Source: Deltaproteobacteria bacterium
Lineage (GTDB): Bacteria; Desulfobacterota; DSM-4660; Desulfatiglandales; B25-G16
Length of the DNA: 35,775 nt
Assembly: GCA_020349945.1 (NCBI GenBank)
Contig: CP070704.1
Coordinates: forward strand, 1,950,744-1,986,518
Direction of reading: 5' to 3'
The position numbers were made by a program, and so were the translations under genes. Positions 1 through 6,601 of the stretch are shown one piece after another (positions within the stretch are counted from its first letter, which is position 1; each line of letters begins with the position of its first letter). A model generated the notes under the pieces. It made no database searches, was not told the DNA's origin, and saw nothing but the letters and a program-made list of their open reading frames with translations.

Positions 1-79
1 CAGGCTGCCTCTTTTCCACTGTCTTCAGGAAATAGGCGACGTAAGCTAAAAGCTCAATAAAACAGTCGACGATTCGCAC
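1..79 (-). CDS. tssL: TssL (DotU/ImpK) type VI secretion protein, N-terminal fragment
   Basis: Only the first 26 codons are inside the window; the gene runs off the left edge. A GTG start at 79-77 follows the tssK stop by 2 nt, and a GGAGGAG ribosome binding site overlaps the end of tssK. The readable peptide (VRIVDCFIELLAYVAYFLK) resembles the N-terminal helix of TssL/DotU proteins, the C-tail-anchored inner-membrane subunit that joins TssM and TssJ in the T6SS membrane complex. The order tssJ-tssK-tssL is the usual one in T6SS loci, which supports the call. The fragment is too short for a firm domain assignment, so the name rests mainly on context. Confidence 0.6.
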   Translation of the reverse strand, partial: MRIVDCFIELLAYVAYFLKTVEKRQP

Positions 80-81
80 CG

Positions 82-1467
82 CTAACTCCTCCCCACAACC
101 ATGAGCTCAACTTTCAGATCCTCCGGAGCCGTATCCCAGTATAGTGCAATATTGTGGCCCTGTTGAACCTGTGCCCATTGGTCACCGTGATGGTCAATCT
201 GGCAGTAAATTGCGCGGGCTCTGCGAGGCAGCTCCTCGGGCGGGGCGGAGAGATGCTCCATTTTTATCCCCGGAAGCGCCCGGGCGATCAGTATGGGCAG
301 TGATTCCCTTGAGCTTAACTTAGAAATGGTCGCCAAGGACTGCACCACGGATTGAGGATCTGTCTCTGTTTCAAAAACCAGATAAAACCGGTTTCCACCT
401 TCGAATATGGCCGGCGGTAGTTCCGCGGCATAATAGGTTCCGTCAAAGAGCAGCTGGAAGACATATTCCGGTCCCGCCGTTATCTCGTCAAGCAGTTGCG
501 TTATCATTGCACCGGCCCCTGCAAAACAACCCCAGAGGTTGCGGTGATCGTAATCCAAAACGCCTTGGCTTCCGTCTGCCAGTTCCCCCATGACGGTGAT
601 TTGCCCTGAAAAGGCGGAAAGCTCTCCAATCATCTGTCTTAAGAGTCCGTATACGTGCCAGGGATGTGTGTGGTCGGAAGCTAGCACGTGCTCAAGGAAG
701 GGGATGTATCGATTCAGTGATCTGAGCGCCAACAGATATACCGTATCCCTCGCCCCGAATTCGGCAGTATGAATCCCACGGTCGCGCTTGTAGGATTCCA
801 GCTGGCGGCCGCGGGATGCGGTCTGGTCTTTGATGTCCACAATCAGCCTCAAAAGGGACTCTGAACTCTTAATGGTAAGGGCCGGCGGAATGAATTTTTC
901 GGAAAGCACAACGTGCTCGCCCATTCTGTCGAGCTGCGCAACTGGTATGAGATGATACTCCCCAAGCTGATCTTTTTCAGTCTCCCAGAAGACCTTCAGG
1001 ACATGATGAAGGCGTTGCACCTTAGCGGGGGGACCGTTGTGATGCAAATCCTGAACCTCTTCCGGGTCAACCGATGTGACAAAACGCGTATTCACTTCAG
1101 TAAGATTTGAGAGCTGAGAAAGGACGGTTACATTTTCGCCGGTTTCGTTCCATTTCTTGAGCCCCAGGTATACACCAAGAGGCTGGCCGCCTTCCGCCCA
1201 AGCGTCCTCAAAGGAGCGGGCCTCGATGATTGCATTGCCCGGTAGGTCGACATAGGTCATATCCGGGAAAATGAAGTTGCCCCTCAACAGATTAAAGGTC
1301 CGGTTATCCAGTGCGGCTGTCTGAACTTCCAAGTCTCCGATGCCCCACGGATAGGGACCAAGATATCTGTATAGGGGTGTCAGAAGGGATTGAACGTGCA
1401 AATCCGCCAGCTGCAAGTGCTGGGGTTGCAAAAAAAGGCCCTGATGCCAAAACAGTGCTCGCTCCAT
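82..1467 (-). CDS. tssK: TssK, type VI secretion baseplate subunit (ImpJ/VasE)
   Basis: 461 aa, the usual length for TssK. The N-terminus (FWHQGLFLQPQHLQLAD) matches the family signature of a W-x-G-x-F-L-x-P-Q-H-x-Q type segment. TssK is the trimeric cytoplasmic connector that links the T6SS baseplate wedge to the TssJLM membrane complex. The start ATG at 1467 has an AAAGGT ribosome binding site about 8 nt upstream. It lies 18 nt downstream of tssJ and 2 nt upstream of the probable tssL, so the three genes are surely co-transcribed. No frameshift or missing segment is visible. Confidence in the family is high; nothing in the sequence tells which effectors the system delivers. Confidence 0.93.
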   Translation of the reverse strand: MERALFWHQGLFLQPQHLQLADLHVQSLLTPLYRYLGPYPWGIGDLEVQTAALDNRTFNLLRGNFIFPDMTYVDLPGNAIIEARSFEDAWAEGGQPLGVYLGLKKWNETGENVTVLSQLSNLTEVNTRFVTSVDPEEVQDLHHNGPPAKVQRLHHVLKVFWETEKDQLGEYHLIPVAQLDRMGEHVVLSEKFIPPALTIKSSESLLRLIVDIKDQTASRGRQLESYKRDRGIHTAEFGARDTVYLLALRSLNRYIPFLEHVLASDHTHPWHVYGLLRQMIGELSAFSGQITVMGELADGSQGVLDYDHRNLWGCFAGAGAMITQLLDEITAGPEYVFQLLFDGTYYAAELPPAIFEGGNRFYLVFETETDPQSVVQSLATISKLSSRESLPILIARALPGIKMEHLSAPPEELPRRARAIYCQIDHHGDQWAQVQQGHNIALYWDTAPEDLKVELMVVGRS

Positions 1468-1485: not shown

Positions 1486-2007
1486 TTATAGGATTTGTTC
1501 AGGTCCCAGTTTAAGGTCAATCACCAGGATATCCAGTTTTTTCCTTTTGGTGCGTCTGATAATCCCCTTTTTCTCAGTAACGACCGGAATTTCATATAAC
1601 CGAACGATTCTATCTCTTTCAATGAGATAATAGCCGGCTGCGACTGCCACGTATTTAGCCCCTTGTGCCCGGTCCAGATTGAAGGTGGTATCTTGCCCGG
1701 GTTGCACAATCAATCTCTTTGCCCCGGCCACGGTGGCGTCGAAAAGGCCGCACTCCAGGAGTTGATACAGGCCGTCCTCATCACCGGCGAGTTGATTGAG
1801 CGTGTTGGGGTCTTTGAGCTGATAGACACACACCAAGAGGGTATGGGGTTTTCCTTCACTGAGGTTCAATTGAGGATCGGCTTTCACGTGGATTTTGATT
1901 GCTTCCTCCTCATAACCCAATTCAGGTGGTGGAAGCTGTTTGGGCGCGCACGACCAAACCAAAAAAACCGATAACAAAAAACTCAAAGTGACAATTAACC
2001 TTCTCAA
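1486..2007 (-). CDS. tssJ: TssJ, type VI secretion outer-membrane lipoprotein (VasD/SciN)
   Basis: 173 aa. A positively charged start, a hydrophobic stretch (residues 5-17) and a cysteine at residue 20 (FLVWSC) form a lipoprotein signal. The mature part has the TssJ pattern: a strand with HVKADPQLN, then PHTLLVCVYQL, then a C-terminal strand ending VIDLKLGP. TssJ is the outer-membrane lipoprotein that holds the periplasmic domain of TssM in the T6SS membrane complex. The start is a TTG at 2007; it is chosen because an AGGAGG site at 2015-2020 sits 7 nt upstream, overlapping the stop of the preceding gene. The 12-nt gap to that gene implies one transcript and probably translational coupling. 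Confidence 0.88.
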   Translation of the reverse strand: MRRLIVTLSFLLSVFLVWSCAPKQLPPPELGYEEEAIKIHVKADPQLNLSEGKPHTLLVCVYQLKDPNTLNQLAGDEDGLYQLLECGLFDATVAGAKRLIVQPGQDTTFNLDRAQGAKYVAVAAGYYLIERDRIVRLYEIPVVTEKKGIIRRTKRKKLDILVIDLKLGPEQIL

Positions 2008-2019
2008 TGGCCCACCTCC

Positions 2020-2751
2020 TTACTGTAGGAATAGTTTTTGGCAATTATTTTCGAACTCCCTCAAGAGCTCCTCCATGAAGCGTCCGGATTCGAACCAGTC
2101 TTTAAATGCCTTGAATCTATCGGCGTATAGGTCAAACGATTCGGCCTTGCGCAGGCGGCCAAGCTTGAAACCACTGCCCTGAGAGGCGGCAATCCGTTCG
2201 GGGTCTAGTTCGACCATGATTTCCTTTACTTTTTTCTCCGCTGCCACCTTGAATGCCTGTTGAGCCGTCAGAAACGCCTTGCTAATTTGGCCGAGGTAGC
2301 TTTCGAGGGATCTCGTGTGATCTTCTCCTTCAAGATGAAAACCGATCATTTGCCGTATGGTCTGCACCCCTTCGCCCTGGCCCAGAAATGTCGCATTAAT
2401 GACCCCCACTAGCTGATTCAGCATATCAAAAATTGTATTCAACGAATCGGCCAGTCGCTGCAAAAGCTCGGCAGAGGATAGATCGGCCTGGGTGACCTTT
2501 TTGCCCAGAAGGAACGAGAAAATCGGGATCAAGACCTCTTGATCAACATTAACCTCCTCAGCAGTACAGACGTCAGTTGCTTCAAATTTGCTCGTTAGTT
2601 CGTCTAACAATTTGATCTTTTCATCCTTCGAAACTCCGTTGAGCGAGCTTTCGAGGAATTCTTCGATGAGATTCTCGGCCCGCAGCTTGTCTGTGTGGTA
2701 TATTTGCCGAATTTGGTTTGCCAGCACATCCAGATTATGTTGCTCAGTCAT
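2020..2751 (-). CDS. TagH C-terminal-domain-like T6SS-associated protein without FHA domain
   Basis: About 243 aa, acidic and mostly helical. The last ~90 residues (AFLTAQQAFKVAAEKKVKEI, LDPERIA, a basic stretch, then FMEELLREFENNCQKLF) resemble the C-terminal half of T6SS FHA proteins (TagH/ImpI type), where a helical region with an LDP-E motif precedes an aromatic C-terminus. The N-terminal FHA domain expected in TagH is absent; residues 1-100 are helical and of unknown fold. The start at 2751 is preferred because ATG overlaps the upstream TGA (ATGACTGA); an ATG 12 codons earlier at 2787 is also in frame but lies inside the upstream gene. It sits between the ETVI-repeat gene and tssJ, so a role in T6SS regulation or assembly is likely. 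The family call is an inference from weak similarity. Confidence 0.55.
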   Translation of the reverse strand: MTEQHNLDVLANQIRQIYHTDKLRAENLIEEFLESSLNGVSKDEKIKLLDELTSKFEATDVCTAEEVNVDQEVLIPIFSFLLGKKVTQADLSSAELLQRLADSLNTIFDMLNQLVGVINATFLGQGEGVQTIRQMIGFHLEGEDHTRSLESYLGQISKAFLTAQQAFKVAAEKKVKEIMVELDPERIAASQGSGFKLGRLRKAESFDLYADRFKAFKDWFESGRFMEELLREFENNCQKLFLQ

Positions 2752-4978
2752 TGTCTTGTTGCTCGTTTCTTTTTTTTGTTGGGTCAAAGATCACCGTCTC
2801 AGGTATATCATCGTCTTTTTCTTTGCCGCTTGCCGGCTTCTCCTCAACTGGCGTCTCGCCGGGTACATTAGAAATGCTTTGCTTTGTCAGTTTTGAATTG
2901 TCTGCTTCAGCCGGTCGCTTTTGTTCAGAACTGATGCGCGGAGCCGAAGGCTCTTTCGATGAGATGATAACAGTTTCCGGAATATCGCTGTCCCTGGATT
3001 CTGCAGGAGATGACGTTTCTCCCTTGGGAGTACCGTGGGCAAAAATAACGGTTTCCGGTATATCCTCATCAGGTTCTGGAGCGGCGGTTGGCGTCTCAGG
3101 CGGTTGAGACGTTCCCGGTTTTACCACAATGGCTTCAGGCACACGATCCTCTTCGACCTCAGAAGGAGGGAGTTTTTCCCTGAAATCATCGGCCGAGAGT
3201 ATAACCGTCTCCTTGACTACGATATCTTCCGGAAGATCAGCTCCCACTTGAAGGATTTTTTGCTCTTCCATCGGCAGGTCGGCTGAAATCTCCTCTGCTC
3301 CCGAGGGAACCGATTGAATAGTGCTTTGCCATTTTTTGGCGATATTTAAGAGAATCTCGTGAATGGCCTGATTGTCACCAATTGGGTATGTGCTGACTCC
3401 AGCACTTGTAGGCATGAATAGGGCATTTTTCACATCAGTTTTAAGTTGCTCGTATTCTTGCCAGAATTCGGTCTGTGAAAAGACGGATAGCTCGCTTATG
3501 CCGCCCTGGATTAGCAGAAGTCCCAAATCGAGAGACCTTCTCCAGAGAGTCGCCCAACTGGCATCAAGCGTCTTTTGATCTGGGTTCCAGAATATGTTTT
3601 CGGGAGAGGAAATAGCTAAATCGTGTATCCTTGAGGCTAATTCCGAGTCACAATCGTTCTCAGCTGCGAGACCTTCAAGAACTTTCGCGATTTCCGCATA
3701 AATTTTGGCGAAATCCTGTCTGGAGTTTGCGAGCAGCCCGCAGAACCAAGTGGATCCGAGGAATTGGAGGCCATACGATGGAGGCGACTTACGCGGAAAA
3801 AGCGCTTGAGCGGAATCACCCCCGATGCCCATAAGATTCAATTTAAAGTTCCACAGAGCTGGCAGCATGCCGCTACGTTTAGCCGTTGTGACCCAGATCT
3901 TATCCATCGATAAACTCAAATCCGGGTATTTGAATATATCGAGCCCAGAAAACACAATTTGAGCCATCTCTCCCAGCAGAGATAGCTTCAAATACAGCAC
4001 TTCAAGGAAAAACTGCTCCTGTTTATCAAATAGAAATAGAGGCTTCTGTGAATTCATTTGTTCGAAATCTCGCAAGAGTTTTACTCTCTCCTGCTGGCTT
4101 TTACCCTGAAGCTGAGCAGCTGCCTCATTCACACTAGCCCCTGACAGCAGGGGCAGAAAATCAAGAACGTGCATCGATGGAGCGTCAAGGACCACCATAA
4201 AAAAGGGGTAGAAGGAAATGGGCACGATCCGTGTAGTTGATAGATGCTGTGTTTCATAGCATTCCTGAAAGTCAGCACATCCAATACAAGGAATGCTTGC
4301 ATGGTGAGTTCCTTCGCCAGTCAGTTGGCCGAATCCACTTATCAGATCCTTCTGGTCCTTCAAAATGGCCGGATCAGAGTCATCTAGAGAATACACATAA
4401 AAATCGGATTCGCCCAGAGTATCGAGACAATTAGGACAAAATAGGTAGCGTTTGAGAGAGGTGGAATAGGGCTGGAGGCCCACACCAAGCAGTAGATCTT
4501 CGTCCTGGCAAATTTGAAGTGAAAACCCGCACTTAGGGCATGATGGCTCAAAAAACACTTGTCGATGTGCACAATAGAATAAGGATTGCCAGGGCAGAAG
4601 TTTGCCGTTAACGTCGACTTGATCCTTTAGAATAACAATCGAATCATCTTGATACGAGGTGGTCAAAAATGAAAATAAAGTCTGCCACGCTTGATCAACG
4701 TCCCGGTTGTTGGTCGGCCATATCCCATCCCTTGTTAAATGATAGTCATCTTTTTGGATCAAAAGGAATACACTTTTGATTCGCGAACCTGCATCGCTTA
4801 GAATGGATGCCTCAAGGATTAACACAAGCGGGTCCGCTTCCCTCATTACCAAAAACGGAAAACGAGTCTTTTCGTGAACAGAGTCGTCCCCCTTGCTCAT
4901 CGCGAGTTTCAAACCGAATCTGGCATCGGCGGACTCCAAATAAGGAATCAAAGCGGGTTTTTCAGCAGGAGAATTCAC
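2744..4978 (-). CDS. T6SS-operon zinc-ribbon protein with C-terminal DIPETVI repeat tail
   Basis: 744 aa, first gene of the T6SS operon, with a clear GGAGG site before the ATG at 4978. I do not recognise a named family. Visible parts: residues 1-130 form a mixed domain; residues 136-240 carry clustered cysteines (C136, CPKC at 147-150, C157, CPNC at 181-184, CIGC at 231-234, C240) that look like zinc-ribbon knuckles; residues 250-560 are helical; residues 575-744 are a disordered, Pro/Glu/Asp-rich tail. The tail holds three near-identical DIPETVI motifs (639-645, 665-671, 724-730), a KETVIL (589-594) and degenerate copies (DLPEDIVV at 581-588, VPEAIVV at 613-619). Each ETVI threonine has a hydrophobic residue at +3, a pattern many FHA domains bind when phosphorylated. 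It overlaps the next gene by 8 nt. A scaffold or phospho-regulatory role is inference. Confidence 0.6.
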   Translation of the reverse strand: MNSPAEKPALIPYLESADARFGLKLAMSKGDDSVHEKTRFPFLVMREADPLVLILEASILSDAGSRIKSVFLLIQKDDYHLTRDGIWPTNNRDVDQAWQTLFSFLTTSYQDDSIVILKDQVDVNGKLLPWQSLFYCAHRQVFFEPSCPKCGFSLQICQDEDLLLGVGLQPYSTSLKRYLFCPNCLDTLGESDFYVYSLDDSDPAILKDQKDLISGFGQLTGEGTHHASIPCIGCADFQECYETQHLSTTRIVPISFYPFFMVVLDAPSMHVLDFLPLLSGASVNEAAAQLQGKSQQERVKLLRDFEQMNSQKPLFLFDKQEQFFLEVLYLKLSLLGEMAQIVFSGLDIFKYPDLSLSMDKIWVTTAKRSGMLPALWNFKLNLMGIGGDSAQALFPRKSPPSYGLQFLGSTWFCGLLANSRQDFAKIYAEIAKVLEGLAAENDCDSELASRIHDLAISSPENIFWNPDQKTLDASWATLWRRSLDLGLLLIQGGISELSVFSQTEFWQEYEQLKTDVKNALFMPTSAGVSTYPIGDNQAIHEILLNIAKKWQSTIQSVPSGAEEISADLPMEEQKILQVGADLPEDIVVKETVILSADDFREKLPPSEVEEDRVPEAIVVKPGTSQPPETPTAAPEPDEDIPETVIFAHGTPKGETSSPAESRDSDIPETVIISSKEPSAPRISSEQKRPAEADNSKLTKQSISNVPGETPVEEKPASGKEKDDDIPETVIFDPTKKRNEQQDND

Positions 4979-5261: not shown

Positions 5262-5317
5262 ACACCTCTGTAAGGTATTGGACGGTTATCAAACATCAAA
5301 AAAAGGAGGTGTATCCC

Positions 5318-6601
5318 ATGAGACTGAAAGATTATGCACGAAATCACAAAAGACGTAAAGAGTATGTTCAACAGCCTGGTTTATTGCTCGTTGGAGTCGA
5401 GGTGAGCAAATCCAAACACGGTGCCTGCATTGGCACACAAGCAGGCGTTATCTGCAGGAAGTTTTCGTTTATCCACTGCCGAGAGGGGTTCAGATTGTTT
5501 GAGAGCGCCCTCCGGAAGAAGATGTTCAGGCATAACCGCAAAAGGGTGCTCATCGCCATGGAACCATCGGGTATGTACTGGTACGCCCTCTTCGAGAGGC
5601 TCAAAGGCTGCGGCTATGGCTTGTGCCTGGTGAACTGCAAGGCTGTCAGAAATAACTGAAAGACAATGCATGATAACATCAGCAAAACAGATGAGAAAGA
5701 TGCCCACAGCATCTTTGATCTCTGCAGCAAGGAAAGTTCTTTCTCCCCGTAGAACGTGATCCCGAACTGAGGGCTGCCTACTGCATGATGCAACGACATA
5801 TGGCCATGAAGAAGCGGGTGAGCAGGATGAGAAACCAACTGCGCGCAGCCATCCACCTGGCGTTCCCCGAGCTCAATCCCCTGATCAAGGATCTCACCCA
5901 GCCAACCTCCCTGCGGTTCCTTCAGGCCAATCCAACCCCCAGATCCATCGCCCGAAACGGCCTCAGGCGCTTCCTGGAGAAGTGGCGACCCAGAAGGCGG
6001 TACGGACAATGGCGGCCCGAGAAGTTTCAACAGATCTACGAGCTGGCTAGGACAACTGTTGGCCTCAGAGAGCCGTATCGCATCGATGAGTTTGAGATCA
6101 AGGCCCTGGCCTATGATCTCCGATGCCTTGGAGAAAGAAGACATGTGGCTCACGAAGGCTATCGAACTACTCGAGCACCGTCCCGACTACCAGGTGCTCC
6201 GGAGGTTACCACGGATCGGCACGCCCACTGCCGCTGCGATCCTGACCGGCATCGAGGACATAACTAAATACAGAAATGGCAAGCAGCTCGTCAAACTCGC
6301 GGGATTAGATCTCAAAGTGTTCGAGAGCGGCGCAACTATGCGAAAGCGACCCAAAATCTCCCATGTCGGCAGCGCCTATCTCAGACACTGGCTCTACCAC
6401 TACGCCAAGAGGCTCGTGGCTCATGATCTCCATTTTAAAGACTGCCATCAACGGCGAAAGGAACGCTCCCCCGGCAAGGGGGCAGGGCAGCGAGCACTCG
6501 TTGCTGTATCAGATAAGATTATCCGCATCGTATATCGTGTATTGGCTGATAATGAGAGGTACAACCCAAAGAGGGATCAGGTGGTTCCTGCCGATACCTG
6601 A
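5318..6601 (+). pseudogene. IS110-family transposase, broken by one stop and two frameshifts
   Basis: Read across its lesions, this encodes about 427 aa of an IS110-type DEDD transposase. The N-terminal RuvC-like part has VGVEVSKSKHG and AMEPSGMYWYALFERL; the C-terminal Tnp_20 part has RLPRIGTPTAAAILTGI and LVKLAGLD with RPKISHVGSAYLR. The lesions are an in-frame TGA at 5657-5659 (where Arg is expected), a one-base loss near 5720-5722, and a one-base gain near 6118-6121 that restores the frame. The first acidic residue is Glu (VGVEVSK) where the family has Asp (IGIDV), so the first catalytic position is also altered. The start ATG at 5318 follows AGGAGG by 8 nt. The two shifts compensate each other, so the 5720-6120 part is otherwise well preserved and decay looks recent. 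Sequencing error could explain the shifts but hardly all three lesions. Confidence 0.85.

Follow-up and report, generated by a model that had tools for sequence, protein, structure and literature searches.

Gene content of the locus and architecture of protein X

The window, meaning the whole stretch of 35,775 nucleotides that was analysed, opens on part of a T6SS operon carried on the minus strand. The first gene of this operon is an open reading frame with a GTG start (2744..4978, minus strand) that encodes a protein of 744 aa, here called X. Next on that strand come genes for an FHA-less, TagH-like helical protein (2020..2751), the outer-membrane lipoprotein TssJ (1486..2007; PF12790, E=3.4e-20, and TIGR03352) and the baseplate protein TssK (82..1467; PF05936, E=1e-105, and TIGR03353), and then the start of TssL (1..78), of which the first ~26 codons (VRIVDCFIELLAYVAYFLKTVEKRQP...) are present. 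A 100-N scaffold gap, immediately outside the window, ends where the window starts and cuts tssL. Two scaffolded MAGs, independent of each other, have breaks at nearly identical places early in tssL (L034:931-1030 and L006:19645-19744), which hints at a repeat or at strain variation.

X consists of a folded body (aa ~6-556) with AlphaFold pLDDT values mostly of 80-96, followed by a tail (aa 571-744; 2744..3268, minus strand) whose values of 30-41 agree with the disorder proposed for it in an earlier sequence-only reading of this DNA. Nine cysteines of the body are invariant or near-invariant in an alignment of 45 sequences (C136, C147, C150, C157, C181, C184, C231, C234 and C240); their pattern includes CxxC, and they are probably metal ligands. 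Neither a relative nor a family name for X was found in Pfam, NCBIfam or the PDB, and profile searches detected no FHA domain in X or in 45 homologues. Of the 50 top-ranking PDB Foldseek matches to X, about 40 have kinase-like folds, belonging to several families (best E=0.035, with low TM-scores), and the top viral Foldseek match is a Ser/Thr kinase (E=0.0085, probability 0.84). Profile-profile comparison returned nothing kinase-like, and none of the catalytic Lys, HRD or DFG-type residues is invariant in the 45-sequence alignment. Since the PDB is rich in kinases and no match is significant, a pseudokinase body is treated as a lead only, a suggestive Foldseek pattern without profile support.

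The gene downstream of X encodes 243 aa from its likely ATG at 2751, the longest reading frame giving 255 aa from a TTG at 2787. Its product matches PF20232 at E=0.0012, below the cutoff, and 35 of 38 homologues match the same family at E<=0.01; a structure model is all-helical, and no solved structure was found to be similar to it. The sequence-only reading had called this neighbour TagH-like, which holds for the C-terminal domain of TagH (TagH_C) and not for the FHA domain, which is absent from the window protein and from the 38 homologues. It is thereby ruled out as a reader of phosphothreonine (pThr), and any such reader must be a separate protein. The likely ATG overlaps the stop codon of X by 8 bases, from which it is judged that the two genes are probably translationally coupled.

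The threonine motif of the tail

The tail of X carries four copies of a short motif centred on threonine. The first is KETVIL (aa 589-594, Thr591; 3197..3214), followed by DIPETVIF (aa 639-646, Thr643; 3041..3064), DIPETVII (aa 665-672, Thr669; 2963..2986) and a terminal DIPETVIF (aa 724-731, Thr728; 2786..2809), all on the minus strand. Among 45 homologues the threonine is at least 90% conserved in the first three copies and invariant in the last. A degenerate copy, VPEAIVV (aa 613-619; 3122..3142, minus strand), has alanine in place of threonine and reads VPETVMV in the related genome G012. The three DIPETVI copies, the KETVIL and one degenerate copy listed in the sequence-only reading thus stand, and its second degenerate copy falls away, as PPETPTA and PGETPVE are not motifs in relatives. 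When the 194-aa tail was shuffled 20,000 times, a mean of 0.02 motifs was obtained and four or more were never reached, so the repeats are not attributable to chance. The copies differ in synonymous codons, which rules out a recent duplication of the DNA and indicates that the repeats are old. In the 2.53-Mb genome ATHCCNGARACNGTNATH is matched three times, each time within the tail of X, and no second protein with an IPETVI tail was found there. The X protein of G012 is 73% identical to that of the present genome; identity between them is 85% at motif positions and 69% in linkers.

Conservation of the motif, which can be written [LI]x[EK]T[VI][IV][LIM]xP, was scored in the tails of 63 X homologues. 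It is present in 61 of the 63 tails and in at least two copies in 60, with 220 matches against 0.9 expected from shuffles; in 32 kaa of folded sequence the motif was matched 5 times. The profile over the 63 tails reads [DE][DE][LI]x[EK]-T-[VI]-[IV]-[LIM]-[S]-P, with acidic residues at -4 to -7 from the threonine, hydrophobic residues at +1 to +3 and proline at +5. Lack of ETVI conservation among T6SS-encoded homologues, which the sequence-only reading had named as one of its refutations, is not what is seen. The motif as such is kept, and so is a terminal copy, placed in most homologues at 7-19 residues from the C-terminus; the spacing, whose conservation the sequence-only reading had proposed to test, is not kept, since copy number (2-10) and the gaps between copies (12-96 residues) both vary. 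In some homologues, of 424-546 aa, the second half of the body is missing and the cysteine part and the tail are retained, which places the tail among the best-kept features of X. A match in L048 to the MELT family PF19221 (E=0.0011, below the cutoff) was taken as a chance resemblance between repeated threonine motifs.

The identity of the central residue was assessed by searching the 63 tails for the flanks [EKDQ]x[VI][IVM][ILVMF] with the centre left free. Threonine occupied it 210 times, alanine twice, aspartate twice and serine once, and valine or isoleucine never, in tails whose overall composition is 7.3% threonine and 7.1% serine. At +3 the motif has leucine in 51%, isoleucine in 28%, methionine in 12%, valine in 5% and phenylalanine in 4% of cases, within a search pattern that itself limited this position to ILVMF. 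FHA domains are described as highly specific for pThr (PMC3146460), and the strict threonine centre is, at the level of sequence, what FHA readers would impose. The tail motifs thus combine the features expected of FHA ligands, namely threonine rather than serine, a constrained +3 position and a disordered setting. The most degenerate tails, in which the standard motif is lost, are those of the homologues L070 and L081. Next to X, L070 has a canonical FHA-TagH_C protein and L081 a tandem-FHA protein, so that degenerate tails are paired with a different neighbouring FHA protein; this is the expected direction, in only two cases.

Distribution of X and its association with FHA proteins and kinases

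An alignment-based scan of GTDB genomes found 67 X loci, which are named here as in their records. Most belong to Desulfobacterota, and the others to Nitrospirota/Thermodesulfovibrio, Candidatus Brocadia, another Planctomycetia MAG and a 'Deferribacteres' MAG; a match in Zixibacteria is very weak. Where the flank is present, the gene order is X, FHA-less TagH, TssJ, TssK, TssL, TssM, TagF, TssA, TssB, TssC and onwards, and among homologues with intact downstream flanks none was found outside a T6SS locus, the other situation that the sequence-only reading had named as a refutation. Within the order, X occurs in 13 of 85 genomes and TssC likewise in 13, with 12 in common (Fisher p=1.3e-12). The exceptions are the present genome, which has X without TssC and a scaffold gap, and one genome with TssC and no X. 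By operon membership and by co-occurrence, X is a conserved accessory protein of T6SS operons in many, mostly uncultured, bacteria.

A separate dual-FHA protein is the likely reader of the tail. In L076 its gene directly precedes X, and in L056 it is found close to genes for PP2C, a kinase and X; the ortholog of both in the present genome is located at 1,325,096-1,325,641 (48-64% identity). Among the 85 genomes of the order, an ortholog was detected in 12 of the 13 with X and in one of the 72 others (Fisher p=1.3e-12), and of 50 further X-bearing genomes 46 gave matches, 44 of them at E<=1e-40. L058 (CP070652, a single-contig chromosome) and G065 have X without a clear ortholog, and G076 has the FHA protein without X. 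The first FHA domain retains an invariant signature (Gly-Arg, Ser-Arg..His and Asn-Gly-Thr; GR/SR..H/NGT..NG). In the second domain lysine replaces arginine, so this domain is probably not a pThr reader, and the valency of the protein as a reader may accordingly be one.

The surroundings of the FHA gene were also recorded. At 1.325-1.331 Mb of the present genome (L012:8979-14448) are found the FHA protein, a LysM/TPR lipoprotein, a polysaccharide deacetylase-like protein, a sensor gene and the N-terminal half of a kinase. The FHA gene and the kinase are each interrupted by a scaffold gap; the kinase half that remains is 38% identical to an X-adjacent kinase, and the catalytic half falls in a gap. 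In G076 (L148:4405-10486) a module of PP2C, sensor kinase, lipoprotein and FHA protein occurs without X or detected TssC, from which it follows that such a module is able to occur independently of this T6SS.

In 10 loci (L056, L058-L063, L070, L077 and L081) the gene that immediately precedes X, on the same strand and 44-831 bp away, encodes a Hanks kinase; upstream sequence of over 1.3 kb was available for 52 loci. Several of these kinases carry membrane or CHASE2 sensor parts. At most X loci the kinase is not adjacent. One cluster, in L081 (the record of G065), holds X and TagH_C together with a tandem-FHA protein, PP2C and two kinases. In the subset of genomes examined for phosphatases, PP2C genes are found close to X in L056 and L081, and G039 and G076 have one close to the FHA gene. 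A Hanks kinase and an FHA protein are thus both genetically tied to the T6SS that encodes X. In the window, a tblastn search for remnants of a kinase upstream of X gave none. The interval from X to the following gene contains, at 5309-6601, IS110-like transposase fragments with a broken frame, at a place where relatives have a kinase.

The present genome encodes five FHA proteins and three full Hanks kinases. They include a trio of CHASE2-Ser/Thr kinase, PP2C and dual-FHA protein at 2.502-2.507 Mb (L009:16062-19436 and L001:1432-2151), the kinase of which is 37% identical over ~800 aa to the kinase upstream of X in L058. The FHA protein of the trio carries VDRTMILD after its first FHA domain, and the tandem-FHA protein of L081 carries EDKTMFLS; both sequences are close to the tail motif of X.

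A putative phospho-scaffold and alternative accounts of the tail

Taken together, X is probably a cytoplasmic scaffold for T6SS assembly, the tail threonines of which would be phosphorylated by a kinase and read by the separate dual-FHA protein. Genomic context favours FHA-read phosphorylation of the tail, and this reading, with phosphorylation and binding both putative, is the best supported by the sequences. The tail would be phosphorylated by a membrane sensor kinase, whose gene directly precedes X in some operons, a PP2C phosphatase would strip the phosphates, and the first FHA domain of the dual-FHA protein would bind pT-V-I-[L/I/F]. The number of occupied sites would set how strongly the FHA protein and its cargo are gathered at the nascent membrane complex or baseplate, and control of assembly by that number could be graded or switch-like. 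Docking of X there would probably involve both its body and the FHA-less TagH, whose translation would be coupled to that of X, the docking of TagH being a guess from gene order. The canonical Fha/TagH protein would in effect be divided three ways, between an FHA reader, a TagH_C piece and a multivalent phospho-tail. The TssL proteins of X operons are ~225 aa long, and in the one that was scanned the DotU domain starts at residue 3, leaving no extension for a threonine equivalent to Thr14 of Agrobacterium TssL; for this reason the phospho-switch may have moved from TssL to X.

Three described systems come closest to the proposed one. In Agrobacterium tumefaciens, PpkA phosphorylates TssL on Thr14 within DLPpTVVEI, and Fha binds this site only when it is phosphorylated, with a Kd of only ~0.5-1.6 mM (PMC3953482), a weak affinity that counts against the model. 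The PpkA-PppA-Fha pathway combines a kinase, a PP2C phosphatase and an FHA protein tied to the T6SS and acts on threonine only; the X system matches it in its kinase and FHA genes and its threonine-only motif, and at some loci in a PP2C gene nearby. The Agrobacterium site resembles DIPETVIF over D-[LI]-P-(E)-T-V-[VI], a likeness that was not chosen in advance. The acceptor is TssL in Agrobacterium, whereas here it would be a dedicated protein with 2-10 sites, and the FHA domain is on a protein separate from TagH_C. Fha/TagH carries FHA and T6SS_FHA_C domains (PF00498 and PF20232) in one chain, whereas TagH_C stands alone here and X has no sequence similarity to Fha; an assembly scaffold role and kinase control are likely to be shared, as is a TagH_C-like component, in the neighbour of X. 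Phosphorylated Fha multimerises in Serratia (PMC6082577), and PpkA/Fha condensates are reported in Acidovorax (PMC12607579). Outside the T6SS, the C-terminal tail of mycobacterial CwlM (pT382/pT386) and the pseudokinase region of MurJ are phosphorylated by PknB and bound by FhaA (PMC6180346). That system shares with the proposal for X its C-terminal pThr sites, a non-kinase protein and an FHA reader, and differs in serving cell-wall synthesis, in having one or two sites and in lacking a T6SS; no sequence relation to X was found.

Several other accounts of the tail were weighed. The repeats might be short linear motifs that dock constitutively on TssK, TagH_C or TssL by beta-strand augmentation, without phosphorylation and with copy number serving as avidity. 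ETVIL is strongly beta-prone, the terminal copy is placed like a capture peptide near the C-terminus, and TagH_C, TssJ and TssK follow X at every locus with an intact flank. A plain beta motif would, however, tolerate serine, valine or isoleucine at its centre, where 210 of 215 residues are threonine, and constitutive docking leaves the adjacent kinases and the co-occurring FHA protein unexplained, so that this account is unlikely. Alternatively, the tail could be phosphorylated and read by another FHA protein or by an intramolecular contact, phosphorylation mainly altering charge or solubility. The supply of FHA proteins and kinases in the present genome, including the trio whose kinase resembles that upstream of X in L058, would allow this; co-occurrence of the FHA ortholog with X across families, and its position next to X in L076, make a different reader distinctly improbable. 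It should be added that X and the FHA protein may co-occur because parts of the T6SS are inherited together, and not because the two proteins touch.

It is very improbable that X in this genome is merely a relic of a broken operon with an unconstrained tail. A broken operon was considered because no TssC was found in this MAG, which is 90.7% complete, and because the window begins within tssL. The break, however, is a scaffold gap and not a mutation, so the missing TssC is best explained as an assembly effect and a relic operon was dropped as the main reading. All four genes are intact, the related genome G012 has TssC elsewhere in its scaffold, and motifs have been kept better than linkers between the two genomes. 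An extension of the phospho-scaffold model would make X a dead, metal-binding kinase-like protein with a multivalent pThr tail that, with the separate FHA protein and stand-alone TagH_C, forms a phosphorylation-tuned and possibly condensate-like scaffold replacing canonical Fha in the T6SSs of several phyla; this fuller version is conceivable though doubtful.

The T6SS threonine-phosphorylation pathway has been described in a few Proteobacteria, in which one or two acceptor sites are mapped. The evidence points to the X system as an unrecognised version of the kinase/phosphatase/FHA switch that controls the T6SS. Neither X, nor the pairing of an FHA-less TagH with a multi-site tail, nor the separation of an FHA reader from TagH was described in the literature searched, which covered few subscription journals and gave no papers on Desulfobacterota T6SS with FHA. 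If the phospho-scaffold model is correct, a dedicated and widely conserved multi-site acceptor means that both the substrate and the FHA reader of the pathway can be rewired, and tails with 2-10 copies provide a natural test of switch-like versus graded T6SS assembly. A multivalent tail with an FHA reader is a textbook route to a condensate, and the tail of X thus bears on the recent PpkA/Fha condensate reports. X would also mark the T6SSs of sulfate reducers, Nitrospirota and anammox bacteria, groups that have been little studied.

Some X-related loci have unusual arrangements. In Desulfobacterales HSG16 (L070:821-7442), X and a stand-alone TagH_C lie beside a canonical FHA-TagH and divergent TssK, TssL and TssM; this locus, one of the two with a degenerate tail, is apparently a hybrid. 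In many X-bearing genomes, as at L142:10373-11950, the gene next after the X-associated FHA gene encodes a protein of ~525 aa that joins a TssB-like and a TssC-like stretch in a single chain (VipA, E=2e-9; VipB, E=3e-30; both far below NCBI cut-offs), which raises the question of whether it is a sheath-like regulator. Such a protein is also encoded at L141:10372-11943 and in L146, L147, L149 and L150, in some cases followed by a kinase-TPR protein.
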